The position numbers and the translations under genes are program-made. 59,643 bases of DNA. Origin: Anaerolineales bacterium. GTDB lineage: Bacteria; Chloroflexota; Anaerolineae; Anaerolineales; Villigracilaceae. The stretch is from NCBI GenBank assembly GCA_016934715.1, contig JAFGSI010000069.1, positions 1 to 59,643 of the forward strand, read 5' to 3'. The notes beneath the pieces were generated by a model. It had not been told where the DNA came from, made no database searches, and worked only from the letters and a program-made list of their open reading frames with translations. Positions 40,197 through 55,742 of the stretch are shown here, in pieces (the stretch's first letter is position 1; every line of letters begins with the position of its first letter).

Positions 40197-42461
40197 CTAA
40201 GGAATTTCCCACCCGCGATTGCCCTCTCCAGGATCCAGTGTGAAGTACAGGCTCGGCGCGTAATTGAGCAGGCCTCCTGCCCCCGGGTTGCTGACGACGA
40301 CAAAGGAGAATGCCACCTCCCCGGCGGTGTTCGAGTGGAAAAGGATCCCCCATGTGCCGGGCTGGCGCACTTCGATGTGGTCGAAACTGGCATGCGTAAT
40401 GGGGTAGCTGCCCTCGAGTTCGATCCCGGAAAAGGTGGGACTGTCGATCAACAAATCGCTGACCAGCAGACCGCTGATCTCCCCCTGCGCAGCCCAGATT
40501 TTGAGCGCCCCATGTTCATCATGGAACATGGGGCCGCCGGCCCGGATGAGCGCATTGCTCTGGAGAACGGTGACGCCGTCGAAGGGATTGGCGTTGAATT
40601 GCTGTGCGATGAGAATGCCGGGGTAGGTGACCACGTCAAAACACAGGTTGTTTGCGACGCGGTTATCGGTTCCTCCGTAGATGGCGAAGCAGTTGGCTCT
40701 CCACGGGACCTGGACGGTGTTGAAGCGGAAGACATTGCCGGTGTTCGGCCGGTCACCCAGAGGAGACCATGAGGCAAGCGCGTCGTCACCCGTATTGCGG
40801 AAATGTGAATTCTCGACCAGCGAGTAGCTTGTGCCGTTGCAGAAGTTGACCCCATCGGCGAACAGGTTGCGGAAGCGGCTGCCTGTGATGATCAACCCGT
40901 TCGTTCCGCCGCCAACCCAGTAACCGACCTTGGTGTGTTCGACCCAGATATTTTCCAGCCGCGAACCTGTTCCCGCGCCACCGTTGAAGCCGTTATCCGG
41001 GTTGTTGTCCTGGCGGAGGACCGTTTCGCCCAGAATGGCAAAATCAAAATAACGGCAGTTGTTCCCGGTGCAAAGGAAGCGGGCGAAACTGCCATGGATG
41101 ATCGAGTACCACATCCCCGCGCCCTGAAGGGTGACATCCTGGACTTCAAACCCGCGCAGGTTGCTCTCAAAGGTACCCGCCGGGATCCAGACCCCCGTCC
41201 GGGACGCCTCTGCCCGCGCAATGCAGCTGCGGATGGCGTCGCCATCCTCCTCGCCATCATTGGGGACCGCCCCGCAGTCTTCCACGATGGAGAGGTAGCC
41301 TTCGGGCATGGTTCCGGGTGGGGCGACCTGCTCCAGGTCGACCAGATCAAGGACATAATACTCGGCATCATCGCCGGCGTCTATCTGCAGGCTCACAAGG
41401 GCCCCTGCCGGGATGTCGCCCACGAGCGCCCGCGCCTCATCGTAAAAATGGTGTGCGCCGCCTGCCTGGGGCGCATTCAATGTCCATTCCTCGCCACCGT
41501 AAGACCAGGCGTATCTGGAGGTGAGCTGGATCGTCTGGCGAAAGACCCCCTCCACATACAGGCTGAGGGTGGCGTCCAGGCCCTGCCCATCATCCGAATC
41601 GGGGATCACAAAGCGGACAACGATTGCGTTGGCCGGCTGGATGGCCCGGAAGCGGACATATTCCCCTCTTGCGTCCAGACGGACCGCGCTGCGGCCCGAC
41701 GACTCTGATGCAATGGTCCCGAAGGTTCGATCGGGAGCGAGGACCTCGCCGTTGGTCTGGCCCTGCTCGGCCTCGTATTCGACCCAGGGAACAGCTGCGC
41801 CCCGGCTGGTGGGTGGGTTGGTGGGGGGCGGGATGGCAGGCACCGGCGCGGCTGTGCTGTTGGCCAGTGGCAGGCCGGAGACAGCCTCGATCAGCCAGCG
41901 CGCGTTGTCCGTCGGGACCGGAATGCGGTCACAGCGCACCTGGCCGGCTTCGACATACAGCAGTTGCCAGTTGTGCCAGACATTCCGGATGACGATCGCG
42001 CCCTGTCCGACATCTCCTTCAAAAGTCCAGCGCGGGCTCATCCATTCCGGGAAAATGGGGATGATCTCAACGTATTCTTCCAGATGCTCGATGGAGAGAT
42101 AGTTGCTGCTGGCGCGGTTTTGGAGGCGCAGGCTGCCCTGGTAATCTTCAACCACCCAAAGGGAAGATGGATTGGAGGCCGGGAGGTCCCCGACCTGGGC
42201 CTGTCCATCCTGTTCGTACAGATAGGTGCCCGTTGCGACATTTCTGATCCGTACGATTGGACGGGTCGCGCCGGGGGTCGTCTCCTGCGGCGCGGTCGGC
42301 GTTGGCGTTTGCCCGGCCGTTGACGGCAGTGCAGATGCCGCGGCTGTGATGGGAAGGCCGGGCCCGGTGCTCGTCCCGACCGAGGAAGAGAGCGGCCGGG
42401 GACCGGCACATCCCATCAAGCAAAGGAGAAAGAGAAGAATGACACCGAATCGACGGAGCAT
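40197..42461 (-). CDS. GH87-type alpha-1,3-glucanase (mycodextranase-like) lipoprotein
   Basis: A 754-aa exported lipoprotein. The signal MLRRFGVILLFLLCLMGC ends in a lipobox, followed by a Pro/Thr linker. Residues ~75-210 look like a beta-trefoil. A CBM6/35-like domain (WVEYEAEQGQTNGEVLAPDR, then HHFYDEARALVGDIPAG) and a right-handed beta-helix follow. Blocks such as IEHTKVGYW-like WVEHTKVGYWVGGGTNGL, ADGVNFCNG and NTGDDALASWS match GH87 enzymes, where the Asp pair is catalytic. GH87 enzymes cut alpha-1,3-glucan (nigeran, mutan). Placement after the ABC permease genes, on the same strand, fits cell-surface glucan digestion feeding the transporter. Confidence 0.75.
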   Translation of the reverse strand: MLRRFGVILLFLLCLMGCAGPRPLSSSVGTSTGPGLPITAAASALPSTAGQTPTPTAPQETTPGATRPIVRIRNVATGTYLYEQDGQAQVGDLPASNPSSLWVVEDYQGSLRLQNRASSNYLSIEHLEEYVEIIPIFPEWMSPRWTFEGDVGQGAIVIRNVWHNWQLLYVEAGQVRCDRIPVPTDNARWLIEAVSGLPLANSTAAPVPAIPPPTNPPTSRGAAVPWVEYEAEQGQTNGEVLAPDRTFGTIASESSGRSAVRLDARGEYVRFRAIQPANAIVVRFVIPDSDDGQGLDATLSLYVEGVFRQTIQLTSRYAWSYGGEEWTLNAPQAGGAHHFYDEARALVGDIPAGALVSLQIDAGDDAEYYVLDLVDLEQVAPPGTMPEGYLSIVEDCGAVPNDGEEDGDAIRSCIARAEASRTGVWIPAGTFESNLRGFEVQDVTLQGAGMWYSIIHGSFARFLCTGNNCRYFDFAILGETVLRQDNNPDNGFNGGAGTGSRLENIWVEHTKVGYWVGGGTNGLIITGSRFRNLFADGVNFCNGTSYSLVENSHFRNTGDDALASWSPLGDRPNTGNVFRFNTVQVPWRANCFAIYGGTDNRVANNLCFDVVTYPGILIAQQFNANPFDGVTVLQSNALIRAGGPMFHDEHGALKIWAAQGEISGLLVSDLLIDSPTFSGIELEGSYPITHASFDHIEVRQPGTWGILFHSNTAGEVAFSFVVVSNPGAGGLLNYAPSLYFTLDPGEGNRGWEIP

Positions 42462-42480
42462 GAAACGGGTTCTGCCCTGG

Positions 42481-43347
42481 TCAGAAGGTAAGCCCACCCT
42501 TCATGTAGCGCTGCAGGAAAATGGCAGCGAACATGGGCGGGATCATTGCAATGAAAGAGCCAGCCATGTGCAGGTTCATCGGGAAGTCGCGGGTCAAGTT
42601 GAAGAGCCGCACCGAGACGGTCTGCATCGATGAGTCACGCAGCACCAGCAGCGGCAGCAAGAAATCGCCCCACAGGCCGATGAAGGACAGCAAACCCAGA
42701 ACCAGCATGATGGACGCTGACAGGGGGATGGTGAATTGAAGGAAGATGCGCGTTTCGGTTGCACCATCGACCTCCGCCGCATCATAGATTTGACGCGGGA
42801 TGCTGTCGAAGGCGTTTTTCAACACCAGGATCATGAACGGATTGACTGCATAGGGCAGCCACAGCCCCCAGAAGGTATTGATCAGGCTGGTGTTGATAAA
42901 GGGCAGTTTGGCCAGCGTCATGTACAGGGGCACAAGGTAAGCGATGCGTGGAATGGTCATGGTGATCAGGATCAGCACCATGACCAGATTGGAGCCGATC
43001 GGCTTGAGGCGGGAAAGAAAAAAGGCTGCCAGCGAGGAGACCACCAGCTGTGCAAGCACACCGCCGCCTGCCACGACGAAGGTGTTCCAGAACATGCGCG
43101 TCATATTGAAGCGCCGCCAGGCCTCAACATAATTTCCCCAATCCGGGCTGGCCGGCCATAGATTCACGCCGGGCCGATAGATTTCCGTGCTGTTCTTCAG
43201 GCCGGCGGTAAAGGAAAAGAAGAAGGGGAAGATGATGATGATGCCGGTCAGCACCAGGATGGCGAAGAACAGCCCAAGAACGAGGCGCCCTTTGAGGGAA
43301 CGGCCTTCAACAATGGACATCACGCCGCGATTGGCGGTTGCCTTCAT
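42481..43347 (-). CDS. ABC sugar transporter permease (MalG/CUT1 type)
   Basis: A 288-aa permease with six hydrophobic segments and the EAA loop YDAAEVDGATETRIFLQFTI that docks the ATPase. It ends MKGGLTF, typical of CUT1 permeases. GAGGAG sets the start at 43347; 10 nt separate it from the partner permease. No ATPase gene is in the locus, so a shared MsmK-type ATPase must serve it. Confidence 0.92.
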   Translation of the reverse strand: MKATANRGVMSIVEGRSLKGRLVLGLFFAILVLTGIIIIFPFFFSFTAGLKNSTEIYRPGVNLWPASPDWGNYVEAWRRFNMTRMFWNTFVVAGGGVLAQLVVSSLAAFFLSRLKPIGSNLVMVLILITMTIPRIAYLVPLYMTLAKLPFINTSLINTFWGLWLPYAVNPFMILVLKNAFDSIPRQIYDAAEVDGATETRIFLQFTIPLSASIMLVLGLLSFIGLWGDFLLPLLVLRDSSMQTVSVRLFNLTRDFPMNLHMAGSFIAMIPPMFAAIFLQRYMKGGLTF

Positions 43348-43357
43348 GGATTTCTCC

Positions 43358-44293
43358 TCAGTATTGGATTGATTCACGCCCGAGCGATAGCCGGACGTAA
43401 ACAATCGAGAATAATGATAAGACGACCAGCAATGAAACGCTCCAGGCCGATGCCAGGCCAAAGTCGCTGCGTTCAAAGGCGGTCCGGTAGAGTTCGAGCA
43501 CGGGTGTGACGGTGCTGTTGGCTGGGCCACCCGTTGTCAGAATAAAGGGCTCGGTGAATACCTGTCCCACGACGATGATCTGCAGCAGGAGCATGATTTG
43601 CATGCGTGAGCTGATCAGGGGCAGGGTGATATACCAGATGCGCTGCCAGGGCGAGAATCCATCCAGTTCAGCGGCTTCGTAAATTTCTGTGGGGATTTCT
43701 TGTAGCGCCGAAAGGTAAATGAGGACACTGCCGCCGGCCCCCAGCCAGGTCATGATCACCACGATGGCGGGTTTCGCCAGGTCAGGATTCTGCAGCCAGA
43801 GCTGCGCCGGCAGGCCGATGGAGTTAAGCAGGCTGTTTAAGACGCCGCCATCGGGGGCATAGATCTGCCGCCAGACAAGCAGGGCCACGGCAATCGGAAT
43901 GAGCGAGGGGAGATACACAATGGTTTGAAAAAAGCGCCCGAAGTGGCGTAGCTCATTGACCATCAGCGCCAGGAACACGGGTACCATGAAGCCCATGAGA
44001 ATACTGATGATCAGAAAGACAGCGATATTTTTCCAGGCGGTATAGAACAAGGGATTGCCAAACATGCGAACATAATTATGCAATCCAACCCATTCCGAGG
44101 CTCTTGTCAGGTTCACTTCCTGAAAACTGTAGACGATCGTGGTGAGGATCGGGCCGAAGGTCATTACAGCAAAGATCAAAAGGGTTGGCAGGATGACCAG
44201 ATAGGAGAGGGCCTGCTTTTTCCAGAAGTTTCGAGACCGGGGCGGTCTTGGCGATGGGGTGTCGAGGGATGGATTGGCCAGGGTTGTCATCAT
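43358..44293 (-). CDS. ABC sugar transporter permease (MalF/CUT1 type)
   Basis: A 311-aa permease with a charged N-terminus and six hydrophobic segments. The EAA loop is YEAAELDGFSPWQRIWYITL. AAGGAG lies before the tandem ATGs at 44293 and 44290. It lies between the binding protein and the second permease, the standard CUT1 order. Confidence 0.92.
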   Translation of the reverse strand: MMTTLANPSLDTPSPRPPRSRNFWKKQALSYLVILPTLLIFAVMTFGPILTTIVYSFQEVNLTRASEWVGLHNYVRMFGNPLFYTAWKNIAVFLIISILMGFMVPVFLALMVNELRHFGRFFQTIVYLPSLIPIAVALLVWRQIYAPDGGVLNSLLNSIGLPAQLWLQNPDLAKPAIVVIMTWLGAGGSVLIYLSALQEIPTEIYEAAELDGFSPWQRIWYITLPLISSRMQIMLLLQIIVVGQVFTEPFILTTGGPANSTVTPVLELYRTAFERSDFGLASAWSVSLLVVLSLFSIVYVRLSLGRESIQY

Positions 44294-44371
44294 TTGGCTC
44301 CTTGCCAGTATTGTAGTGAACAGGTGGCATTTGCGCAATGCCACCTGTTCGATGGAGTATGTTGAGCCGAG

Positions 44372-45862
44372 TTACCTCAGTTGATCGAGCACGTTGGTCT
44401 GGAAAGTGTCGGCGGTCTGCAGCAGGATGGCTGCCGGGTCAGCGCTCTGATCGTTGACCACAGTGCTGACAACTGCTCCCAGGGCGCTGTAGAAATCCTG
44501 TCCGGCAATCAGCGGTTCCGGCTGCATGCTGGCCTGGCCGGAAGAGATCGCATCCAGGAACAGCTGGTAGTTGGCGACCGGCAGATTCGCATACTGGGCC
44601 TGCAGGGCCTCGAGCGCGGCTTCGTAATCGCCCACGTAGAGCGGCAGGGTCGGGGCGCCGACGACAACGGTCGGATTGGAGGCACCGGATTCGAAATTGG
44701 CAACGATTTCGTCGGGGTCGAACTGGGTGAACAGGCGCCAGTACACTGCGGCCTCAACCTGTTCAGGAGTGGCCTGAGCGCTCACCATGGCGATATTGCC
44801 GCCGACCAGGGAAACACTCGTGCCGTTGGGACCGGCAGGCAGCGGTGCGAAGCCGTAATCATCGATGGGCGCATCCGGGTAGGTCTGGCGGATCCAGGTG
44901 AATTGATCGCCCGCCATCACAACCATGGCCGCCCGGCCGGTGGCCAGGGCCTCGCCGTTGGTACCCCAGTTGAGGTTCTCGCGCGGCAGGACATCGTAGG
45001 TCCAGCGCAGGTCGTAGACGAACTGCAGGGCCTCGAGCATGGGCCCTTCGCTGAAGCCGGCCGCGTAGCCGGTGTCGCTCTGGCGAACGATATCGGTGTT
45101 CAGGAGACCGAAGTTGTAGGCAATGGTGGTCATGTGCCAGCCAGCCGCGCCGCTGCCATCCGTGATGAAGGAGAAACCAGCCACACCGGCATCGCGATCG
45201 GTCAAAGCCTGCGCCATCACGGCCAGCTCTTCCCAGGTCGCGGGGGGCGCGTCATACCCGGCAGCATTGAGCATGCTGATGTTGTAGGCCAATCCCATCG
45301 CGTATGCGAAGCGCGGAATACCATACACTCTCCCATCCTGGGTGGCAATGCTCATGATATCCGGGTTGAAAACCTGGTCGAGATTCTGGGCCTCGAAGAT
45401 GCTCGTCAGGTCGGCAGCAACCCCCTGTTCGATCATCTTGCCCGGGTCGGTCAGATAGACCTCAAAGAGCGTGGGCACCTGGTTGCCGGCGACAAGCGCT
45501 GCAAAAGAATCCGGCGTGTAGGCGTAGTCGGTGCCAGTGATGGTGACGTTCGGGTACATCTCCTGGAAACGGGCCACCTGGGCTTCCCAGGCCTCCACAG
45601 CCTCGGGCTGGGAATCGGCCGGTTTCTGCACTACTGTGATCTCCACCGGGCTGCCGCCTGCGATCTCTGCGGGGAAAGCGATCACTGCCGGGAGGGGGCC
45701 CTCATCCGCGGGCTCCTCCACCGGGGCTGTGGTTTCTTCTACCTCAGGTGCTTCGGTGGCCACTTCCGGGGCTGCTTCCGTGGTCGCCGAACTGCCGCAT
45801 GCGCTGAGCACCAGCGTCACCAGCAGAACCAGGGTAGACAGAACAAACAATTTGGATCTCAT
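44372..45862 (-). CDS. ABC sugar-binding lipoprotein
   Basis: A 496-aa extracellular solute-binding protein of family 1. The signal peptide ends in the lipobox LVLSAC, followed by an acidic Thr/Glu/Pro linker. The mature part has the family blocks VARFQEMYPNVTITGTDYAY, GRVYGIPRFAYAMGLAYNIS and ATGRAAMVVMAGDQFTWI. AAGGAG precedes the ATG. A LacI-type operator lies about 135 nt upstream, shared with the divergent STAND gene. Confidence 0.93.
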   Translation of the reverse strand: MRSKLFVLSTLVLLVTLVLSACGSSATTEAAPEVATEAPEVEETTAPVEEPADEGPLPAVIAFPAEIAGGSPVEITVVQKPADSQPEAVEAWEAQVARFQEMYPNVTITGTDYAYTPDSFAALVAGNQVPTLFEVYLTDPGKMIEQGVAADLTSIFEAQNLDQVFNPDIMSIATQDGRVYGIPRFAYAMGLAYNISMLNAAGYDAPPATWEELAVMAQALTDRDAGVAGFSFITDGSGAAGWHMTTIAYNFGLLNTDIVRQSDTGYAAGFSEGPMLEALQFVYDLRWTYDVLPRENLNWGTNGEALATGRAAMVVMAGDQFTWIRQTYPDAPIDDYGFAPLPAGPNGTSVSLVGGNIAMVSAQATPEQVEAAVYWRLFTQFDPDEIVANFESGASNPTVVVGAPTLPLYVGDYEAALEALQAQYANLPVANYQLFLDAISSGQASMQPEPLIAGQDFYSALGAVVSTVVNDQSADPAAILLQTADTFQTNVLDQLR

Positions 45863-45995
45863 TTTTCTTCTCCTTGTTGTGGTGGGATGGAACAGAAGGT
45901 TTATGACAAAGCATTTTCCTGCTACGATAACACTTTGTTCTGGTAAGAGTATACGAGCAAACCCGGTTGGCTTGGTCTAAGGATAGGCTAAATAT

Positions 45996-46011
45996 AGTTG
46001 AACGTTCAACT
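45996..46011. promoter_or_regulatory. LacI-type operator 1 (divergent arms)
   Basis: AGTTGAACGTTCAACT is a perfect 16-bp palindrome in the space between the divergent binding-protein and STAND genes. It covers the -35 (TTGAAC) of the STAND promoter. An identical copy precedes the GH65 genes at 48510. Confidence 0.8.
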
Positions 46012-46034
46012 TGAATGTGGTATAATCTTTGCAA
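45998..46034 (+). promoter_or_regulatory. Promoter of the STAND regulator gene
   Basis: TTGAAC (45998-46003), 17 nt, then a perfect TATAAT (46021-46026). The ATG at 46035 follows after 8 nt, so the message would be leaderless or nearly so. The operator overlaps the -35. Confidence 0.65.
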
Positions 46035-47480
46035 ATGGAATCGTGTACTGCGCACCGACTATCTATGACCGATGTCTGGGACGACGAACGCGTAAAGGCC
46101 CTGCTTCACTTTCCTCGTTTTCCCATTCGGTTGATCCAGCAGGAGCCCTGGCAATCCTGGATCAGGGAGCACGGCGGGCTGAAAGCCGTCCATGATTACC
46201 TGCAGCACTATCCCTTCCCCCCCAGCCATCGCCGGATTCTCGAGGCTGTGCTTTCCACCCCGGAGGCGGTGGCCAACGTCTATGCGGACCGCCTGAACAT
46301 CAGCCGCGCCACCTATTTCTACCAGCTGCGCGAGCTGGTGGCGGCCATCGTGCAGGCCCTCAACCAATGGGAACCGACCGAGGCGCTGCTGTCCCGGGAG
46401 GCGACATTCCCCCGGAGCAGCCTGCCTGCCCCCCTGACCAGCCTGGTTGGTGTCGAAGCCGTCCTGCGGGCGCTTGCGCGCCTGCTTGCCAGTCCGGACG
46501 TTCGCCTGCTGACCCTGCTGGGTCCCGGCGGGATCGGGAAAACCCGGTTAAGCATCGCATTGGCGCACCGCCAGAACCGGCCGGCCTGTTTCGTGGATAT
46601 ATCTGCCCACCAGGATCCAGCGAAGGTCCCCGCCGTCATTGCCAAGAACCTTGGCGTCAAGACGGCCACTGCCTCCGGGCTGAAAAACGCCCTTCGAGAG
46701 CATGAATTCTTGCTCATTCTGGACAATTTCGAGCAGATTCTCCCCGCCCGCAGCCTGGTTACGGATCTTTTGACGGCCTGCCCCCGCTTAAAGATCCTGG
46801 TGACCAGCCGGGCGGCCCTCCATGTTTATGGGGAACATGCGTTTATCGTTCCACCGCTGGCGACCGCGGATGTCGATACTGTCAAGGATCAACAGCTCTG
46901 GGCGCAATCCCCGGGCGTGACTTTGTTTGTCCAGCGCGCCCAGGCAGTGAATCCTAATTTTTCGCTCAACAAGGAGAATGTCGAGTCGGTGACTGAAATC
47001 TGCCAGCGACTGGAGGGGCTGCCCCTGGCCATTGAGCTGGCTGCCTTTCAGGTCAAGTTCTTCTCGCCCCAGGCCATTCTGATGCGATTATCCGATCATC
47101 TCCTGAATTTCCTTGGACAAGGAGTCAACCAGATGCCGGCCCGCCAGCAGGGAATCCGCGCCATGCTGGACTGGAGTTTCAAGCTGCTGCCTCCCGAACT
47201 GCAGGCGTTCTTCTGCCAATTGTCGGTTTTCCCGGGGAGTTTCACCATCGCAGAAGCGGAAACCCTGTGTGCAGTGGAAGAAGTGCAGGGCGGCCTGACA
47301 ACCCTGGTGGATCATTCCATGATCGACCAGCATATTGGAGAAGATGGGGAGCCCTGTTTTCAGATGCTCGATATGATCCGCGAATATGCGCGCGAGAGGT
47401 GTCGTTGCAACCTGCCGCTTGACAAAAAGGCTGTTCGCCACGATAATTTGTTGAACGCTCAATCAGGAAGTAACCTATGA
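46035..47480 (+). CDS. STAND/NB-ARC ATPase regulator (AfsR-type, without C-terminal repeats)
   Basis: 481 aa. The N-terminus (~1-110) is a winged-helix-like domain ending NVYADRLNISRATYFYQLRE, common in Chloroflexota regulators. An NB-ARC ATPase follows: Walker A LLGPGGIGKTRL near 160, Walker B LLILDNFEQIL, sensor KILVTSRAAL, and GLPLAIELAA in the helical part. Homologues normally continue into TPR sensor repeats, but here the protein stops after FQMLDMIREYARERC plus a short odd tail and overlaps lacI by 4 nt. It may act with LacI, or be a truncated regulator kept for coupling. Confidence 0.82.
   Translation: MESCTAHRLSMTDVWDDERVKALLHFPRFPIRLIQQEPWQSWIREHGGLKAVHDYLQHYPFPPSHRRILEAVLSTPEAVANVYADRLNISRATYFYQLRELVAAIVQALNQWEPTEALLSREATFPRSSLPAPLTSLVGVEAVLRALARLLASPDVRLLTLLGPGGIGKTRLSIALAHRQNRPACFVDISAHQDPAKVPAVIAKNLGVKTATASGLKNALREHEFLLILDNFEQILPARSLVTDLLTACPRLKILVTSRAALHVYGEHAFIVPPLATADVDTVKDQQLWAQSPGVTLFVQRAQAVNPNFSLNKENVESVTEICQRLEGLPLAIELAAFQVKFFSPQAILMRLSDHLLNFLGQGVNQMPARQQGIRAMLDWSFKLLPPELQAFFCQLSVFPGSFTIAEAETLCAVEEVQGGLTTLVDHSMIDQHIGEDGEPCFQMLDMIREYARERCRCNLPLDKKAVRHDNLLNAQSGSNL
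47449..47464. promoter_or_regulatory. LacI-type operator 2 (imperfect, before lacI)
   Basis: TGTTGAACGCTCAATC matches the palindrome at 45996 and 48510 in 12 of 16 positions. It lies inside the 3' end of the STAND gene, 12 nt before the lacI start, and could give autoregulation. Confidence 0.45.
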
Positions 47481-48481
47481 GAGTCACGGTCATTGATGTT
47501 GCCAAGGCCGCTGGAGTTTCTCGCACGACCGTCTCCAATGTGCTCGGAGGAAAGGGGAATTATTCCGACGAAACACGCGATGCGGTGATCGCGGCGGCGA
47601 AAAAACTGGGGTACAAGCCCAATCTGGCGGCGCGCTCGTTGATCACGAACCGCTCGCGCCTGATCGGCCTGATCCTGCCTTCTTACGTCGACACAAACAC
47701 CCTGACCAACAGCCCTTTCTACAACATCATCATGGACAGCGTCTATTCCGTTTTACGCCTCGAGGCCTATTATGACCTGATCCTGTTTTCCGTTCCTTAC
47801 AAGGAGATCCTGTTACAGGTCAATGACTGGATTGACGCCCGCAACGTCGATGGCATCCTGGCGGTCGGCGAGTATGAACGCCCATTCATGCAGGAGTTAA
47901 ATGCCAAGCAGCTCCCCGTGGTCCTGATCGATAATTATGCGCATGACAACTTTGTCAATTTCTCCTATGTAAACTCGGATGACGAAACCGGAGGCTATCT
48001 GGCGACCCGGCACCTGGTCGAAAAAGGATACCAGAAAATAGCGCTGTGCAGCGTGGAGCTGGACAGTCCGCTGATGCAGAAACGCTATCAGGGCTATAAG
48101 CGCGCCATGAAAGAGGCGGGCTATAAAGAGCATGCCTTCGATAAAACCGGCATCCCGTTTGAAGCGGGTTTGCAGTTCGCCGATTCGTTGTCGGCCCAGC
48201 AGTTCGAGGCTGCATTCTGTACGGAAGATATGGTGGCGGTTGGCCTGGTTCATGGGATGCTCAAAATGGGTGTGCAGGTCGGGCCGAAATTCGGCGTGGT
48301 GGGCTTTGATAATTCCAACATCGGGAGGCAAATATCCCCCGAGTTGACCACCATTGACCAGAATATCTTTGAGAAGGGCGAGACCGCCGCCAGAACGCTG
48401 TTGAAGATCATCAACAACCAGGTCCAGCGAGGCAGCCGCTTGATCTTGCCGGTCAGCCTGGTGGTACGGGAGACGGCTTAG
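47477..48481 (+). CDS. LacI-family transcriptional regulator
   Basis: A 334-aa repressor-type protein. The N-terminal HTH is typical (VTVIDVAKAAGVSRTTVSNV), followed by the hinge helix (KPNLAARSLITNRSR) and a periplasmic-binding-protein-like sugar sensor domain with FGVVGFDNSNIGRQISPELT near the end. The 16-bp palindromes around it have LacI-operator form. It probably represses the glucan genes until a disaccharide or sugar phosphate binds. AGGAAG precedes the ATG, which overlaps the STAND stop. Confidence 0.92.
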   Translation: MRVTVIDVAKAAGVSRTTVSNVLGGKGNYSDETRDAVIAAAKKLGYKPNLAARSLITNRSRLIGLILPSYVDTNTLTNSPFYNIIMDSVYSVLRLEAYYDLILFSVPYKEILLQVNDWIDARNVDGILAVGEYERPFMQELNAKQLPVVLIDNYAHDNFVNFSYVNSDDETGGYLATRHLVEKGYQKIALCSVELDSPLMQKRYQGYKRAMKEAGYKEHAFDKTGIPFEAGLQFADSLSAQQFEAAFCTEDMVAVGLVHGMLKMGVQVGPKFGVVGFDNSNIGRQISPELTTIDQNIFEKGETAARTLLKIINNQVQRGSRLILPVSLVVRETA

Positions 48482-48509
48482 CTTTTCGGGCCTCTTTTTT
48501 TCGCAGGGC

Positions 48510-48525
48510 AGTTGAACGTTCAACT
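48510..48525. promoter_or_regulatory. LacI-type operator 3 (before the GH65 operon)
   Basis: AGTTGAACGTTCAACT, identical over all 16 bases to the site at 45996. It lies 28 nt after the lacI stop and 62 nt before the first GH65 start, so it should control the phosphorylase operon. Confidence 0.8.
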
Positions 48526-48587
48526 AGATTCTGCGCGTGAGTCTCCCCTTCCGAGACGCACTGCAGCCATTTCTCCCAGGAGTTGTG

Positions 48588-50864
48588 ATGGGCAAAATCG
48601 CAGATCAATATTTGCTGGTGGATCCCTGGAAAATCATCGAGGAAGGTTTTCACAGCGATCGAAGCCAGGTGTCCGAGTCGCTGTTTTCGCTGGCGAATGA
48701 ACACCAGGGAGTGCGTGGTTTCTTTGACGAAGGGTACTCGGGGAAAAGCCTGGTCGGGGTGTACCTGAATGGCATTTACGAGCAGCAGTTCACGCAAGGC
48801 ACGACCTATAAGGGGATCTCCAACCGGCTGGCTTTCATGGTCAATACTGTCAACTGGCTGGCCACCCGCCTGGAGGTCGATGGCGAAGCGCTTGACCTGG
48901 CGAAGAGCACATACTCCGCATTCCGCCGCGAATTGAATTTCCGCACGGGGGAATTGCGACGTGAGTTCATCTGGGAAACCCGGACCGGGAAGAAGCTGCG
49001 GCTGGTTTTTCTACGCCTGCTCAGCATGCAAACCAAGGAACTGGCCTGCCAGCAGATCCGCATCACGCCATGCGGTTTTTCGGGGAAGGCGACACTGACT
49101 CTGGGCCTGGATTTTTCTGTGCCCCATCGCTCCTTTGGACAGAATTTTTGGGACTGCCCGCGGAAGGAAGCCCTGGCCATCCTCGGGGTGAGCAAATCCC
49201 TCGAACAGCGGTTGTTCGCCGGAATGCAGGTGGAGGCCGGAGTGCCGCTGACGCCCATCGAAGCCGAGAAATATGCCGGCGGCAGCATGGACGTGGATCT
49301 TGTTGACGGCCAGGAGCAGGTGATCGGGAGATCCGTGATCCTGTCCTCGGACCGGGATCCGAAGCAAACCCTGGAGGAAGCCTGGCAGGGCGGGCTGGGC
49401 CAACTCCAGACCTCCATCAGACCCTATGCGGATGTCCTGGAGCAGAACCAGGCCTACTGGCATCACGTCTGGGACCGAGCGGATATCATGATCGAGGGGG
49501 ATCCGGAAACCCAGCAGGGGATCCGGTTTTGTATTTTCCAGATGCAGCAGACCTATCGCGGCGCGCTGGCGGGTGCGAGCATTGGCGCCAAAGGACTCAC
49601 CGGGGAAGCCTACAACGGGAATGCCTTCTGGGATACCGAAACGTACTGCCTGCCGTTCTACCTGTTCAGCAACCCGGCGGCGGCAAAGGCGCTGCTTGAT
49701 TTTCGCCACCGGACGCTGCCCCAGGCGTTGGAACGTGCCAGGGACCTGGACTGCCGCGGGGCGTGCTACCCGGTAGCGACCTGCGACGGTACGGAGAGCT
49801 GCACACTCTGGCAGCATGCCAGCCTGCAACTCCAGCCGACGACCGCGGTGGCCTATGCGATCTGGCACTATGGGAAAGTGACCGGCGACACGGCCTTCGT
49901 ACGCCGTGAAGGGGCTGCGATGCTGGTCCAGATCTGCCGCTTCCTGGCAAGTCGTGGACAGTGGTCCCCCAGAGGCAAATTCGGTTATTACGCCGTGATG
50001 GGGCCGGACGAGTTCCACATGATGGTCCATAACAACGCCTACACCAATTACATGGCAAAGCAGGCCTTCGAATTTGCCGCCTGTATCTTGGGCGCGCTGG
50101 ATCTTTCAGAAGTGGGCTGCTCGGCGGCGGAACTGGGGACCTGGCGGCGCATGGCTGCCGAGATGTTCATTCCCTATGATCCAGAGACCCTGCTGTATGA
50201 ACAGCACGATGGCTATTTTGATCTGCCTCACCTCGATGTGAATGCCATCCCGGTGGAGGATTTTCCACTGTACCAACACTGGTCGTATGATCGTATTTTT
50301 CGCAGCGATATGATCAAGCAGCCAGATGTCCTGATGTTCATGTTCCTGTATAACCAATCCTTTTCAACGGCGCAAAAAGAGGCCAACTATACCACCTATG
50401 CGCCGCGCTGCATCCACGAATCGTCCCTTTCGCCATCCGTGCATTCGATCCTGGCGTCTGAACTGGGGCGGCACCAGGAAGCGTTCGACTTTTTCCGCTT
50501 CGCGGCCCGCATCGACCTGGACAATTACAACCGCAATACCGACGAGGGCATCCACACCACCTCCATCGCCGCGGCATGGATGAACATCGTCTATGGTTTT
50601 GGCGGGATGCGTTCGGATGGCGAGATTCTGGCCTTCAATCCCTGCCTGCCGGCCCAATGGAAGGGATACAGCTTCCAGGTGTTCTATCGCGGCAGTCTGA
50701 TCCGGGTGGAAGTCACCCAAAGAGGGGCGCTGATACGGGTTGTGGATGGGCCTCCGCTGACTCTCAAAGTTGGTGAACAGGTGCAGGAGGTCGATCAGGC
50801 TGGCCGGAGGATCGCCTGGGCATCTGCGCCCGACCAGAAATCCTTGCACGGAAGAGGTCCCTAA
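48588..50864 (+). CDS. GH65-family glycoside phosphorylase/hydrolase, copy 1
   Basis: 758 aa from ATG 48588 (AGGAG 5 nt upstream; an open frame extends to 48537 but has no ribosome site). GH65 landmarks: an N-terminal beta-sandwich, an (alpha/alpha)6 barrel with GNAFWDTETYCLPFYLF, the catalytic-acid block VMGPDEFHMMVHNNAYTNY (general-acid Glu in PDEFH), and the phosphate-site region MIKQPDVLMFMFLY plus ESSLSPSVHSIL. It lacks the insertion seen in copy 2 after the GACYPVATCDGTE block, so substrate choice probably differs. GH65 inverting phosphorylases act on maltose, trehalose, kojibiose or nigerose. The stop overlaps the next start (TAATG). Confidence 0.87.
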   Translation: MGKIADQYLLVDPWKIIEEGFHSDRSQVSESLFSLANEHQGVRGFFDEGYSGKSLVGVYLNGIYEQQFTQGTTYKGISNRLAFMVNTVNWLATRLEVDGEALDLAKSTYSAFRRELNFRTGELRREFIWETRTGKKLRLVFLRLLSMQTKELACQQIRITPCGFSGKATLTLGLDFSVPHRSFGQNFWDCPRKEALAILGVSKSLEQRLFAGMQVEAGVPLTPIEAEKYAGGSMDVDLVDGQEQVIGRSVILSSDRDPKQTLEEAWQGGLGQLQTSIRPYADVLEQNQAYWHHVWDRADIMIEGDPETQQGIRFCIFQMQQTYRGALAGASIGAKGLTGEAYNGNAFWDTETYCLPFYLFSNPAAAKALLDFRHRTLPQALERARDLDCRGACYPVATCDGTESCTLWQHASLQLQPTTAVAYAIWHYGKVTGDTAFVRREGAAMLVQICRFLASRGQWSPRGKFGYYAVMGPDEFHMMVHNNAYTNYMAKQAFEFAACILGALDLSEVGCSAAELGTWRRMAAEMFIPYDPETLLYEQHDGYFDLPHLDVNAIPVEDFPLYQHWSYDRIFRSDMIKQPDVLMFMFLYNQSFSTAQKEANYTTYAPRCIHESSLSPSVHSILASELGRHQEAFDFFRFAARIDLDNYNRNTDEGIHTTSIAAAWMNIVYGFGGMRSDGEILAFNPCLPAQWKGYSFQVFYRGSLIRVEVTQRGALIRVVDGPPLTLKVGEQVQEVDQAGRRIAWASAPDQKSLHGRGP

Positions 50865-53248
50865 TGGAATGGAAGATCTCCGAAACAGGCAGACCTGCTC
50901 CCGGCGATATTGAGCGCAGGGGCAACAAGCTCCTGATCAGCAACGGGTATATCGGCTATCGCGGCACCCTTGAGGAGTTCAATAGGGACCAGAAGACTGC
51001 CACCATTGTCTCGGGCCTGTACGACAGGGTCGCCCATTTGTGGCGCGAACCGGTCAACCTGCCCAACGGTGGTTTTGTCCAGATCGGCTACGCAGGCGAG
51101 CTGCTGCATGTGCTGACGAGCAAGGTGATTGACCATTCGCAAAGCCTGGATCTGCAGCATGCAGTGCATGAACGACAGACCACCTTCGAAACCAGCGACG
51201 GAACCCGCATCACGATCCGCTCGCGGCGCTTCGCCAGCCTGGCGCGCCGGAATCTGCTGTGCATGGAATTTTCGGTCAGCGCCGACCGAGCGTGTGAAAT
51301 TGACATTTGCACCGGCATCGAGGGGAATGTGTGGGACATCAACGGTCCGCACTTGACCGCTCTGGCTGCCAGGGAGCAGAAGGGTATTCTTTCGGTCAGT
51401 GCCGTCACCCATGAAAATGCGATCCAGATTGCGGTTTCAGAAGCCGTGGTCCTCCCGAGTGGGCGCAACCGGGTGTACGGGCAGGGCGCGCAGTTGTCCG
51501 CAGCCTCCGCTTTCCGTGAGTTCCGGGTTGCGCTTGTCAAGGATGGTTTCACCTTTCACAAAATCGTTGCGCACGCCTTTGGCCTGGACTGTGAAGATCC
51601 CCTCGCAACCAGCCGTCAGCTCTGCCGGCAGGCAGCCGGTGTGGATTTTGAGACCCTGCTTGCCGAGCATGCTGCCCTCTGGCGCCAGCGGTGGGAGAAC
51701 TGTGATATTCAGATCGAAGGCGATCCTGCCGCCCAGCAGGCCCTCCGCTTCAGTATGTATCATCTCCTGGCGATCGTTCCCGCGCACACGGCCCGCGCCT
51801 CCATCCCCGCCCGGGGCATGTCTGGCCAGATGTACAAGGGCGCAATTTTCTGGGACACCGAAATTTTCATGCTCCCGTTCTTCACGCACGCATTCCCCCG
51901 GCTCGCTCGCAACCTGCTGCTGTACCGTTACCATACGCTGGATGGGGCGCGCCGCAAGGCCCGCGAATACGGCTACCGCGGCGCTTTCTACGCCTGGGAG
52001 AGCCAGGACAGCGGCGATGATGCCTGCACGCTTTTCAACGTCACCGACGTGTTCACCCACCGTCCGATCCGGACCTATTTCCGCGACAAACAGGTGCACA
52101 TCAGCGCCGATATCGCCTATGCCTTCTGGCAATATTTCACCCTCACCGGTGACGCTTCCATATGGATCGAGGGTGGGGCGGAAGTGATCTTTGAATGCGC
52201 CCGCTTTTATCTGGCCTACATTTACTATAACCCCGACAGGCGCCGTTACGAAATCCTCGATGTCACCGGGCCCGATGAATATCATGAGCGGGTCCACAAC
52301 AATGCGTTCACGAACCGCATGGTCGCCCACACCTTCGAGGTCTGCCTGAAGGTCGCGGCCCTCCTCAGGCAGCATTCCCGGGGATTCTATGATGGCTTGA
52401 TGGAGGCGCTTTGTTTTGAGTCTGACCTGGCAGCGATCGCACAGATCGCCCCCAGGGTGTTCCAGCCCGATTCTGCCGTCCCCGGTACCGTGATCCCTCA
52501 ATTTGATGGGTATTTCACCCTGGAGAATGTTTCCCTGCCCACCCTGTTGGGGCGCAAGCTGCATCCAACCGAATATTTCGGCGGCGGGAGTGGACTGGCC
52601 ACGACGACCCAGATCATCAAACAGGCCGATGTGGTCTTGATGCTCTCTCTTTTCAGCGAACGCTACCCAACTGAAACAAAATCCGCCAACTGGGAATACT
52701 ATGAGTCCCGCACGGAACACGGCTCCAGCCTGAGCACCTGCTCCTACGCGCTCATCGCTGCCCAACTTGGCAAAGTGGACTGGGCATATCAGTACTTCAT
52801 GAAGACCGCCACCATCGACCTGGCCGGTGAAGCGAAGCAATATGTGGGCGAGCTGTATATCGGCGGCACCCATCCCGCCGGCAACGGCGGCGCATGGATG
52901 TCAGCGGTCTTTGGCCTGTGCGGGATCCATTGCGTTGATCTCTGCATCGCCATCAACCCGCACCTGCCTGCGCACTGGAGCAAGGTCACCCTGCCGATCA
53001 TCTGCCAGGGTCAGATGTTGCGCATCACCCTGACCCATGAGGCGGTGACCGTGCTGCCGGTCGTGCCCCTCGAAGCGCAATTATCGGTCTCGGTCGAGGG
53101 CTCCGTTCACCCGCTGGATCCGACCGCCGAAACAACCTTTCCCTATCATGCGTGGCAGGGCGCTGAAAATGGTCTTGAAAACGCCTGCCGGGCAGAAATT
53201 GCATCGACCGGGTTCGATCGGGTCCATGGCGAACCCTGCGAGTCGTAA
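50864..53248 (+). CDS. GH65-family glycoside phosphorylase, copy 2
   Basis: 794 aa. Barrel blocks GAIFWDTEIFMLPFFTH, GAFYAWESQDSGDDACTLFN, RTYFRDKQVHISADIAYAFW, the acid motif VTGPDEYHERVHNNAFTNRM (Glu in PDEYH), and the phosphate-site residues in TQIIKQADVVLMLSLF and HGSSLSTCSYAL. The FNVTDVFTHRPIRTYF insertion occurs in the kojibiose/nigerose-type branch as far as I recall. It would phosphorolyse an alpha-linked disaccharide to glucose plus beta-glucose 1-phosphate, the substrate of the next gene. Exact specificity is inferred from context. Confidence 0.88.
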   Translation: MEWKISETGRPAPGDIERRGNKLLISNGYIGYRGTLEEFNRDQKTATIVSGLYDRVAHLWREPVNLPNGGFVQIGYAGELLHVLTSKVIDHSQSLDLQHAVHERQTTFETSDGTRITIRSRRFASLARRNLLCMEFSVSADRACEIDICTGIEGNVWDINGPHLTALAAREQKGILSVSAVTHENAIQIAVSEAVVLPSGRNRVYGQGAQLSAASAFREFRVALVKDGFTFHKIVAHAFGLDCEDPLATSRQLCRQAAGVDFETLLAEHAALWRQRWENCDIQIEGDPAAQQALRFSMYHLLAIVPAHTARASIPARGMSGQMYKGAIFWDTEIFMLPFFTHAFPRLARNLLLYRYHTLDGARRKAREYGYRGAFYAWESQDSGDDACTLFNVTDVFTHRPIRTYFRDKQVHISADIAYAFWQYFTLTGDASIWIEGGAEVIFECARFYLAYIYYNPDRRRYEILDVTGPDEYHERVHNNAFTNRMVAHTFEVCLKVAALLRQHSRGFYDGLMEALCFESDLAAIAQIAPRVFQPDSAVPGTVIPQFDGYFTLENVSLPTLLGRKLHPTEYFGGGSGLATTTQIIKQADVVLMLSLFSERYPTETKSANWEYYESRTEHGSSLSTCSYALIAAQLGKVDWAYQYFMKTATIDLAGEAKQYVGELYIGGTHPAGNGGAWMSAVFGLCGIHCVDLCIAINPHLPAHWSKVTLPIICQGQMLRITLTHEAVTVLPVVPLEAQLSVSVEGSVHPLDPTAETTFPYHAWQGAENGLENACRAEIASTGFDRVHGEPCES

Positions 53249-53259
53249 AGAAGCCGGCG

Positions 53260-53919
53260 ATGATCCGAGAAATGCGTGCCGCCATTTTCGACCTGGATGG
53301 TGTCATTGTCGACACGGCGCACTATCACTACCTGGCCTGGAAACGGCTTGCTCAAGATCTCGGCTTTGATTTCAGCGAAGCCGAGAATGAACGCCTGAAG
53401 GGCGTCAGTCGTACCCGCTCCCTCGAAATCCTGCTGGAAATCGGCGGCCTGACCATGGACGAAGACGCCAGGGCCAGGGCTGCCGCCCGCAAGAACGCCT
53501 GGTACGTTGAGTACCTCGCCCACCTGGATGCCTCGGAGATCCTGCCAGGCGCGGCCGAGTATCTGCACAGCCTGCGCGGGCGGGGGGTCAAAACTGCTCT
53601 CGGCAGCGCGTCCAAGAACGCCCCGCTCATCCTTGCCCGGCTCGGGCTGACCCCGCTGTTCGAGGCGATCGTTGACGGCAACATGGTCAGCCGCGCCAAG
53701 CCCGATCCCGAGGTCTTTCTGCGCGCCGCCAGGCAGCTCCGCACCCCACCGGCCAGCTGCATCGTCTTCGAGGATGCCGAAGCCGGCATCCAGGCAGCCC
53801 TGCGCGCCGGCATGGGCGCGGTGGGTGTTGGCAGACCAGAGACCCTCAAGACAGCAGACATGGTGATCGAAGGGCTGTATCAACTCAACGCCCTGCTGGG
53901 CATTCGCTCTTCTGCATAG
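53260..53919 (+). CDS. pgmB: Beta-phosphoglucomutase (HAD superfamily)
   Basis: A 219-aa HAD phosphatase-fold enzyme. The catalytic DxD is in IFDLDGVIVDTA, followed by HYHYLAWKRLAQDLGF and RLKGVSRTRSLEILLE, which mark beta-PGM. Later motifs are GSASKNAP, SRAKPDPEVFL and VFEDAEAGIQAAL. It converts beta-glucose 1-phosphate to glucose 6-phosphate and so completes the GH65 pathway. It begins 12 nt after GH65 copy 2; an alternative start at 53272 is possible. Confidence 0.93.
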   Translation: MIREMRAAIFDLDGVIVDTAHYHYLAWKRLAQDLGFDFSEAENERLKGVSRTRSLEILLEIGGLTMDEDARARAAARKNAWYVEYLAHLDASEILPGAAEYLHSLRGRGVKTALGSASKNAPLILARLGLTPLFEAIVDGNMVSRAKPDPEVFLRAARQLRTPPASCIVFEDAEAGIQAALRAGMGAVGVGRPETLKTADMVIEGLYQLNALLGIRSSA

Positions 53920-54113: not shown

Positions 54114-55688
54114 TCAGCCGTTCAGTCTTTGATAACTTGCCTTGTTCTGTTTGTAGAACGTGACGAACTCGGCGAAGAGCTTGTCGTAAAGGGCCCGGTT
54201 CTCCGGGTTCGGCAGGTAGATCGCCTTGCATGCGATCTTCTGCGGGATGTCGGCGAAGGCCAGGTGTCCCAGGCCGACAGCGGCGATGAAGGCCGCCCCG
54301 CGGGCGTTGGCCTGGATCGGGTCACGCAGCTGGCGGATGCTCACGTTCATCACGTCGGCCAGGATCTGGCTCCAGACATCCGACTTGGCCCCGCCACCGA
54401 CGAAGTTCAGCTGGGTTAACCTGTGCCCCATGAACTTCTCGGCCGGCCCGACCAGCCAGCGCGCGTTGAGCGCAACCCCCTCCAGGAAGGCGCGCACGAT
54501 ATCCTCGCGGGTCGTCTCCAGCGAGATGTTGAACAGGGCGGCGCGGGCGTTGCGGTCGTCGATCGGGGCGCGCTCGCCGTAGATCCACGGCATGTACATC
54601 AGGCCGTGGCTTCCGGGCGGCGTCTTGGCGGCGATGCGGTCGAAGACCTGGAAGACATCCGGGTTGTGCTCCTCCTGCAGGAGCTCATCCTTGTGGTAGA
54701 GGATCTTGTCGCGCAGGTAGTTCAGGTTGCCGCCGGCGGTCGTCTGCAGGACGATCATCAGGAACTTGCCGGGGATGGCGCACGGCACCGAGGCCATCCA
54801 GGATGAGAGGTCGGTCTTCTTGTAGGGCACGTGGGCGGCGAGCCAGTTGGACGTGCCGATGTAGATGTGGGCGTCGAAATCGTTGACCGCCCCGGCCCCG
54901 ATGGCTGCCGCGCTGACATCGATCGCCCCGGCGACAACCCTGACCCCCTCCTGCAATCCCAGGCTTTGGGCCACCTCCCGCTGCAGCGTCCCGATCACCG
55001 TGGTGCATTGGACCAGTTCCGGGAACTTGTCCGGGGCGATGCCGCAATCTTTGAGCAGGCCGTCATCGTAGGTGATGTGGGCCGAGTCGCGGTTGTCGGT
55101 CACCCAGGAGGTCAGGATCGAGTCGGACGTGGCGACGAATTCCCCGGTCAGGCGCAGGTTCATGTAATCCAGGGCTGTCAGGAACTTGTAGGTCTTCAGG
55201 TAGACTTCGGGATACTCGTGGCGGACGAGCAGCATGTGGGCGGCCGGATCCGTGCCGGTGTGGGTGGGCACGCCGCCGGTCAGGGAAAGCCAGCGCGGCA
55301 GTTTGAAGACGTTGTAGCCGGCCACCTTGACCAGCCCGCCGATGATCTTGTGGAGGTGCCTGGCGCCGCGCATGTCCAGCCAGGAGATCACGTTCATCAA
55401 GGCATTCCCGTCGGCATCGACCGGGATGGTGCACTCCCCCTGCGTCGAGCAGCACACGGCGAGAATGCTCGCGACCGGCACCAGCTCCTTCCGGATCAGG
55501 CGCCTGGCAGTGGCGAGGAAGGCATCCCACCAATCCTGGGGGTCCTGCTCGGCGCCGCCGTCGGGCAGGATGTGGAGCGGCAGCTCCTGGACTTCCCAGC
55601 CGGCCACCCTGCCGGAGGTGGAGATCAGTGCTGTTTTGAGGGCCGAAGTGCCCAGGTCCACGGCGAGAACGTAGGGCTCATTTTCCAT
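54114..55688 (-). CDS. FGGY-family carbohydrate kinase (xylulokinase-like)
   Basis: A 524-aa kinase of the actin-like ATPase fold. The N-terminal phosphate loop is LAVDLGTSALKTALIS. Then come STQGECTIPVD, WLDMRGARHLHK, a substrate-side Asp in GAIDVSAAAIGAG and the ATP-site block LNFVGGGAKSDVWSQILAD with NARGAAFIAAV. AAGGAG precedes the ATG at 55688. Family members phosphorylate xylulose, ribulose, gluconate or related sugars; which one is undecided. It converges on pgmB with 194 nt between, in which I see nothing. Confidence 0.88.
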   Translation of the reverse strand: MENEPYVLAVDLGTSALKTALISTSGRVAGWEVQELPLHILPDGGAEQDPQDWWDAFLATARRLIRKELVPVASILAVCCSTQGECTIPVDADGNALMNVISWLDMRGARHLHKIIGGLVKVAGYNVFKLPRWLSLTGGVPTHTGTDPAAHMLLVRHEYPEVYLKTYKFLTALDYMNLRLTGEFVATSDSILTSWVTDNRDSAHITYDDGLLKDCGIAPDKFPELVQCTTVIGTLQREVAQSLGLQEGVRVVAGAIDVSAAAIGAGAVNDFDAHIYIGTSNWLAAHVPYKKTDLSSWMASVPCAIPGKFLMIVLQTTAGGNLNYLRDKILYHKDELLQEEHNPDVFQVFDRIAAKTPPGSHGLMYMPWIYGERAPIDDRNARAALFNISLETTREDIVRAFLEGVALNARWLVGPAEKFMGHRLTQLNFVGGGAKSDVWSQILADVMNVSIRQLRDPIQANARGAAFIAAVGLGHLAFADIPQKIACKAIYLPNPENRALYDKLFAEFVTFYKQNKASYQRLNG

Positions 55689-55742
55689 TTTCACTCCTTG
55701 ATCGGCCAGGCGCAAAGGTTGAAGTCGGCCCGTGAGCGGGGA

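Follow-up and report, generated by a model that had tools for sequence, protein, structure and literature searches.

A divergent GH87-GH65 gene unit of an Anaerolineales bacterium, probably serving alpha-1,3-glucan utilisation, and its candidate regulators

Contig JAFGSI010000069.1 of an Anaerolineales bacterium (phylum Chloroflexota; assembly GCA_016934715.1) was analysed over a stretch of 59,643 nucleotides, here called the window, and compared with the genome to which it belongs (4,089,344 bases in 88 contigs). Positions 40197-53919 hold a divergent gene unit which, judged from its sequence, is very probably a regulon for the utilisation of alpha-1,3-glucan of the pseudonigeran or mutan type. 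The list of open reading frames (ORFs) together with profile matches resolves the region into two arms. The leftward arm encodes, in order, a sugar-binding lipoprotein, two CUT1 permeases, and a GH87 lipoprotein, and the rightward arm a STAND-class protein, a LacI-family regulator, two GH65 enzymes (here GH65a and GH65b), and a beta-phosphoglucomutase (PgmB). A first-pass annotation of this DNA had named most of this gene set, and its families were all recovered in profile searches (SBP_bac_1, two BPD_transp_1 permeases, LacI, two complete GH65 proteins, and beta-phosphoglucomutase); the genes lie where it had placed them, but it omitted the STAND gene at 46035-47480.

The proposed pathway begins outside the cell, where the surface-anchored GH87 lipoprotein would cut the polymer into nigero-oligosaccharides. 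The binding lipoprotein and the two CUT1 permeases would import these, driven by a MalK-like ATPase encoded elsewhere in the genome. Inside, GH65a would shorten the oligosaccharides with phosphate, releasing beta-glucose 1-phosphate, GH65b would split nigerose into beta-glucose 1-phosphate and glucose, and PgmB would convert beta-glucose 1-phosphate to glucose 6-phosphate. LacI, bound to its palindrome between the arms, would cover both the -35 element of the STAND-lacI promoter and a repeat element of the importer arm, and would occupy a second copy before GH65a; it would leave the operator on binding a sugar brought in by the importer, either nigerose or one derived from it. As the first-pass annotation had drawn it, the route runs through to glucose 6-phosphate, but the imported sugars are probably nigero-oligosaccharides and not only disaccharides. 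Of this scheme, the protein families, the catalytic residues, the operators, and their occurrence together with lacI can be read from the sequence; the substrate, the specificities of the enzymes, repression with its inducer, and the part played by the STAND protein are predictions.

The same gene set was looked for in related genomes, as had been proposed, and was found. A syntenic locus with proteins 55-76% identical to those of the window is present in G332 (JACMLM010000058.1, Anaerolineales ES-bin-309, another genus), and a further locus lies in G503 (JAEKNU010000022.1); G232 (PLND01000024.1) has GH87, permeases, binding protein, STAND gene, GH65a, GH65b, and PgmB in a cluster with no lacI in it. 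Partial loci were read in G504 (on two contigs, L085 and L232) and in L087. Across a phylum sample, GH87 was detected in 21 of 400 genomes, with 28 GH87 places outside the window, of which 19 were read, as 18 stretches, and nine were not. GH65 is present in two of the 18 stretches (G332 and G232) and related permeases in ten. Among the named GH87 loci, which are the best 80 of 544 relatives, at least five lie within 10 kb of a GH65 match: G332, G232, G503, a Kiritimatiellota metagenome-assembled genome (MAG; L111), and a MAG of Pedosphaera, whose GH65 match is short. This is a lower bound, as loci end with their contigs and that of Clostridium yunnanense (L135), a sixth GH87-GH65 locus at greater reach, was missed by distance. 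GH65b has matches of more than 50% identity in three of 396 genomes of the class, its own included.

The evidence for the substrate starts with the GH87 gene (40197..42461, minus strand; the ORF opens at 42497). Its start, like the internal starts of both permeases (43347 and 44293) and of GH65a (48588), was judged from the lipobox, start codons, and homologues. The protein carries a lipobox (LMGC) and a ricin-type lectin-like stretch followed by CatAgl_D1 and CatAgl_D2 domains, which match at E values of 1.6e-47 and 3.2e-32 (161.9 and 112.3 bits against a cut-off of 27 each). Among solved GH87 proteins it matches six distinct sequences, several being variants of a single enzyme, and every one of the six is an alpha-1,3-glucanase (E 5.2e-83 to 1.4e-55). 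In an alignment of 10 sequences, the window protein included, Asp548, Asp571, and Asp572 never vary; they share the spacing of D1067, D1090, and D1091 of Agl-KA. The Agl-KA passages of PMC6814745 give the alanine mutants of these residues at most 3.12% of activity after 18 h, and report a tetrasaccharide as the main product, with disaccharide formed too. By family and catalytic triad the lipoprotein is assigned to the GH87 alpha-1,3-glucanases, in agreement with the earlier placement of this beta-helix protein in GH87. No second GH87 was found in its own genome at E <= 0.001.

Four relatives have an ORF of 583-732 amino acids 3' of GH87 (L064:3997-6123, L084:12139-13887, L085:9152-11281, and L087:2924-5119); the product is of the LacI-type sugar sensor kind with no helix-turn-helix (HTH) match, and one has weak STAS matches. 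No ORF of this size is present just downstream of GH87 in the window.

GH65a (48588..50864, plus strand; the ORF opens at 48537) and GH65b (50864..53248, plus strand) are both complete, with three GH65 domains each, and no further GH65 was detected in the genome at E <= 0.001. An alignment shows that both keep SSLS and GPDE, the glutamate of the latter presumably being the general acid. The two consecutive serines that bind phosphate are described in a passage of PMC8626586. Because these serines and the GPDE glutamate are kept, both enzymes should be phosphorylases and not hydrolases.

Specificity was read from six positions numbered on CsKP (64, 392, 394, 402, 416, and 585), for which a section of PMC8537180 gives KV[MF]NES in maltose and EEAPxx in kojibiose phosphorylases and, from single tested enzymes, TRIGPP for trehalose and FAITQA for alpha-1,3-oligoglucan (enzyme ChGP). 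GH65a has F/A/C/T at the first four positions, and its homologues have FAIT (G332 and G504) or FATT (G232 and G503); it is 46% identical to 6W0P and 34% to the L. brevis maltose phosphorylase. GH65b reads EEQTYG. The maltose, trehalose, and kojibiose phosphorylase motifs are in neither protein (FACT-S; EEQTYG), so that by motif neither is of a maltose- or trehalose-only type, and on the same motifs we reject that the two are redundant. In the tandem pairs aligned (nine of 10 seen, one being without a locus), the first member reads FA[CILT][TSND] and the second EEQ[TS]Y[GA]. Cphy_3313 and Cphy_3314 of Lachnoclostridium phytofermentans, which bear neighbouring locus tags, are described in part of PMC8950772 as a nigerose phosphorylase and an alpha-1,3-oligoglucan phosphorylase, respectively. 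From the fingerprints, the tandem pairing, and these activities, we consider GH65a likely to be of the alpha-1,3-oligoglucan phosphorylase type; with a little more confidence, GH65b can be predicted to be a nigerose phosphorylase, given its tandem partner and its GH87 neighbourhood. The first-pass annotation was right to see two GH65 phosphorylases, as families and motifs fit, but they would not be two copies of one step: since the imported sugars are probably nigero-oligosaccharides, as the Agl-KA products suggest, the two likely work in series by chain length, an oligosaccharide phosphorylase followed by a nigerose phosphorylase.

In a sample of 391 clostridial genomes, GH65b has 31 matches, 30 of them with loci; 18 are of the EEQ[TS] type and 12 of the kojibiose type (11 EEAP and one EQAP), and an a-type neighbour lies within flanks of about 1.5 kb for six of the 18. 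In a GH65 tree, from which six of the 30 loci considered for it were omitted as partial or stray, GH65b groups apart from the EEAP sequences. The Kiritimatiellota locus (L111:287-4986) has two GH65 genes, PgmB, and GH87 in a row; its complete GH65 carries the unusual fingerprint QQDP/QQEP and may differ in specificity.

The remaining steps of the pathway are served by an importer and a mutase. The importer genes of the unit are a binding lipoprotein (44372..45862, minus strand; lipobox LSAC), a permease of the MalF/UgpA type (43358..44293, minus strand; the ORF opens at 44344), and one of the MalG/UgpE type (42481..43347, minus strand; the ORF opens at 43530), the likely start being internal in both permeases; an ATPase gene is absent from the unit. 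CUT1 systems with a shared ATPase encoded elsewhere exist. One protein in the genome, on another contig (C33), matches the MalK OB domain (OB_MalK), the one domain scanned in it, and through it a binding protein, two permeases, and a MalK-type ATPase, the set of a CUT1 system, are all represented. PgmB (53260..53919, plus strand) scores 227.4 bits against TIGR01990, whose curated cut-off is 189.4.

That the arms share a repressor is suggested by the operators. The 16-bp palindrome AGTTGAACGTTCAACT occurs exactly at 45996-46011 (O1), between the arms, and at 48510-48525 (O3), before the GH65 arm, with no other exact copy in the genome; base composition predicts 0.0003 exact matches, and one further genome site has 3 mismatches. 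The identical operators noted on both arms in the first-pass annotation thus hold up, and the cross-genome comparison backs their pairing with LacI. A third, degenerate copy, TGTTGAACGCTCAATC (47449..47464, 4 mismatches), lies just before lacI (47477..48481, plus strand; profile match), where two relatives have a good copy. In G332, three copies (1, 0, and 2 mismatches) stand before the binding-protein/STAND pair, lacI, and GH65a, and none of 200 shuffles held three; G503 has copies at the same three places (0, 1, and 1 mismatches), with two more at 4 mismatches elsewhere. The operator is therefore found at matching places in three of the three genomes with this lacI. No operator within 4 mismatches was found in the two stretches of G232 read, where only about 270 bp, with no lacI, separate the STAND stop from the GH65a open frame (the search for lacI did not extend to the rest of the genome). 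L085 and L087 likewise lack one within 4 mismatches, and the other G504 contig, L232, has a single 4-mismatch match inside the GH65a reading frame.

O1 overlaps the -35 element of the STAND-lacI promoter (45998..46026, plus strand), which reads TTGAAC, 17 bp, TATAAT and has 10 of 12 consensus bases, in a region that holds 13 promoter-like sites against 5.3 expected. A weak terminator-like hairpin with a T run (48475..48492, plus strand) lies between lacI and O3; terminator-like sites with a T run number 16 in the region against 12.2 expected. A palindromic operator at promoters, co-occurring with its regulator, is what defines a LacI regulon, and this pattern was found here; LacI very likely acts at the palindrome, as far as sequence can tell. 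An FGGY-family sugar kinase gene (54114-55715) is convergent with the unit. Because no operator match precedes it at <=3 mismatches, it probably lies outside the regulon.

Related palindromes, with 3 or 4 mismatches to the operator, stand before binding-protein genes in clostridial GH65a-GH65b clusters (L226, L227, and L229), and AGTTTAACGTTAAACT (2 mismatches) precedes a chemotaxis-receptor gene in L229. The positions of the AGTTTAACGTTAAACT-like palindromes are L226:16361 and 16394, L227:3910, and L229:814, 3069, and 3131.

The second candidate regulator is the STAND-class protein (46035..47480, plus strand; the ORF opens at a TTG at 46029). Its ATG lies 9 bases past the end of TATAAT, so the transcript may be almost leaderless, and the lacI start overlaps its stop codon. 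AfsR and MalT are STAND transcription activators. The window protein matches NB-ARC above the cut-off and a winged HTH (HTH_24) below it, and has no TPR sensor, so the full AfsR/MalT-like set of HTH, NB-ARC, and TPR sensor is not present. Its G332 counterpart is 64% identical, and no second match was found in its own genome at E <= 1e-10. An AlphaFold2 model has a mean pLDDT of 57.6. PADLOC found no match for the window protein; for the full-length G232 relative it gave a generic TPR model and nothing else, and AfsR is among the weak PDB matches of that relative (E 0.002, TPR part only). The papers listed for STAND regulators in Anaerolineae included none of use. The STAND frame spans 940 amino acids with TPR repeats in G232 and 923, with TPR present, in G504; it ends right after NB-ARC in G332 (472) and the window (483), and in G503 it is broken within the TPR part (740, with a remnant in another frame). 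All three lacI-bearing genomes have a shortened STAND frame, a suggestive pattern among five genomes only.

A direct-repeat promoter accompanies this gene. The window carries an 11-bp-phased direct-repeat element (45975..46003, minus strand; GTCTAAGGATAGGCTAA on the plus strand at 45975-45991) and, beyond it, TATACT (45948..45953, minus strand), the proposed -10 of the importer/GH87 arm, which lies 26-28 bp from the repeats in six of six loci. The right half of the LacI operator forms part of the distal repeat in the window. Loci were scored against a consensus of two 11-bp units (TTTAGACTATG twice, the units of the G504 importer arm) and TATACT at a gap of 26-28 bp, with 300 dinucleotide shuffles per region. 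Mismatches out of 28 on the importer arm were 6 in the window, 5 in G332, 6 in G503, 2 in G232, and 0 in G504, with 6 before GH87 in L087; on the GH65 arm they were 2 in G232 and 4 in G504. No shuffle of 300 reached the importer-arm scores (six of six loci) or the GH65-arm scores of G232 and G504, although these shuffles overstate the case, since consensus, gap, and region limits were chosen after inspection. On the GH65 arm of the window and G332 the repeats are absent (15 and 13 mismatches, reached by 185 and 150 of 300 shuffles), and in G503 they are absent or doubtful (11 mismatches, reached by 7 of 300). Repeats with TATACT (TATATT as the -10 in G232) thus occur on the importer/GH87 arm of six of six loci. 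On the GH65 arm they occur in two of the five loci that could be read, namely the two without the LacI operator there, and on both arms they point the same way with respect to transcription. The repeat promoters lie at 45948-46003 in the window and at L062:9395, L231:16236, L064:12416, L085:2938, L082:3490, and L232:518.

The sequence GTCTAANNATAGNCTAA occurs once in the window's own genome at <=1 mismatch, against 0 for the control. We also considered whether the 11-bp repeat is common in the class and rejected this: the strict pattern TAGTCTAANNATAGTCTAA, which matches neither the window nor G332, occurs in one of 396 class genomes, that of G232, at this very locus. The reversed control likewise had one match (G1102); what carries weight is thus where TAGTCTAANNATAGTCTAA occurs, not how often.

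The simplest reading of these promoters is that the repeats may be bound by an activator, the STAND protein being the likeliest, with LacI overlapping this site on one arm and having displaced it on the other; that the STAND protein itself acts at the repeats we regard as evenly balanced. It is less likely that the repeats are themselves the -10 region of the importer arm, given TATACT at a near-fixed spacing. We tentatively suggest, while rating it somewhat below an even chance, a hand-over between regulators. An ancestral sugar-sensing STAND activator with a TPR sensor would once have driven both arms from 11-bp-phased repeats placed 26-28 bp before TATACT. LacI would then have taken the GH65 arm, its operator growing into the distal repeat and the STAND promoter, and the STAND protein, having lost its TPR part, would have become a LacI-controlled, unsensing activator. 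If true, the repeat element would be the first DNA site proposed for this Chloroflexota STAND subfamily; we know of no earlier one. With a proposed site for each regulator, the six-locus comparison makes the hand-over directly testable.

An alternative would make the STAND protein the master switch and LacI a minor or autoregulatory repressor. The STAND gene adjoins the importer in the window, G332, G503, G232, and G504 and GH87 in L087, that is, in six of six loci, all with the direct-repeat promoter on the importer/GH87 arm, and lacI was seen in three. This alternative is nonetheless unlikely for the window, where the STAND protein has no TPR sensor, the GH65 arm has no repeats, and LacI operators stand on both arms.

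Several findings count against a LacI-controlled alpha-1,3-glucan regulon. At <=3 mismatches the operator has 3 genome matches and its reversed control 5, so that it does not rise above the control, and 2 matches were also reached in two of 100 window shuffles; because the controls score similarly, the weight of the operator rests on its exactness, position, and recurrence in relatives and not on loose matches. The lacI-free contrast is one clear locus (G232), the place of lacI being off the contig in G504 and L087. GH65a departs from FAITQA in having C for I at position 394 and S for A at 585, with 416 in an alignment gap. The wider a clade has exceptions to the fingerprint, AAIG in G463 (L081), whose 12 kb stretch, as read, shows no b partner, and DSIG in G497, the G463 case being the adverse one. 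Mycodextranase, which acts on mixed alpha-1,3/1,4-glucan, belongs to GH87. Finally, GH65b keeps Trp391 and Glu392, which bind kojibiose in kojibiose phosphorylase.

The last two points bear on the substrate. Were nigeran, in which alpha-1,3 and alpha-1,4 bonds alternate, or another mixed alpha-glucan the substrate, the GH87 of the unit would be a mycodextranase and the GH65 pair would act on mixed oligosaccharides; a Streptomyces mycodextranase is mentioned beside mutanases in a passage of PMC11475409, and ChGP can use maltose and kojibiose, as well as nigerose, as acceptors, as stated in part of PMC8950772. We judge this improbable, as the solved GH87 relatives are alpha-1,3-glucanases, KV[MF]NES is in neither GH65, and no family of alpha-1,4 hydrolysis is present among the scanned genes of the unit. 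That GH65b is a kojibiose or other alpha-glucoside phosphorylase, with the second step on alpha-1,2 bonds or a non-glucose acceptor, is very improbable: the two kept residues and a best solved match to 2-O-alpha-glucosylglycerol phosphorylase (35% identical) speak for it, but kojibiose phosphorylases have EEAPxx where GH65b, apart from the EEAP group, has EEQTYG, and GH65b, which commonly stands in tandem with the a type, accompanies GH87 in Chloroflexota and adjoins a GH87 gene in a Clostridium.

The alpha-1,3-glucan unit can be set beside several known systems. LacI-CUT1-GH65-PgmB clusters for disaccharides include E. coli ycj and the maltose phosphorylase operons of bacilli and lactobacilli; these share its logic of transport and phosphorolysis, without an extracellular GH87 and with other GH65 specificities. 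Like AfsR and MalT, the STAND regulator pairs a DNA-binding part with an NB-ARC-type ATPase and, in full-length relatives, a TPR region; unlike them, its N-terminal winged HTH match is weak, TPR is absent in the window, and the putative site is an 11-bp direct repeat. Clostridial relatives (G662, G616, G498, and G499) have runs of binding protein, permeases, GH65a, and GH65b, with LacI in G662, G616, and G498 and PgmB in G662 and G498; GH87 had no match in these stretches of about 10-20 kb each. C. yunnanense (NZ_JAENHN010000039.1; L223/L224) has a b-type GH65 directly beside GH87, permeases and a binding protein, LacI further along the contig, and two more GH87 genes (three on the one contig; L223:7670-13042 and L224:4585-9117), but this contig has a single GH65 and a GH13 gene, and an a-b pair is on another contig (C70).

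Contrary to the first-pass annotation, a pairing of GH87 with GH65 near LacI genes has been described. The relevant passages of PMC9061262 place a putative GH87 of Lachnoclostridium phytofermentans near the GH65 nigerose phosphorylase Cphy1874 (Cphy_1874), whose own gene cluster includes ABC (ATP-binding cassette) transporter genes, LacI regulator genes, and a GH31 alpha-1,3-glucosidase (Cphy_1877); they mention one GH65 and no shared operator. The window has the gene families of a cluster of this type, with nigerose activity predicted for GH65b, but no GH31 among ten proteins scanned, and instead joins two GH65 genes and PgmB with GH87 in one divergent unit and adds a STAND regulator. The two activities proposed for GH65b and GH65a have, in the part of PMC8950772 cited above, their parallel in Cphy_3313 and Cphy_3314. 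No description of the Chloroflexota unit was found among the open-licence papers listed, and the one listed for GH87 with Chloroflexi concerns viral communities. For these Chloroflexota, the unit suggests a concrete and testable role in recycling the alpha-1,3-glucan of fungal walls or biofilms by phosphorolysis, which saves energy. Systems of this kind are thus known; what is new is that GH87 and both phosphorylases, reported from separate locus tags in Lachnoclostridium, stand together in a single divergent unit, which uses one operator sequence and has a second regulator of an unusual sort.

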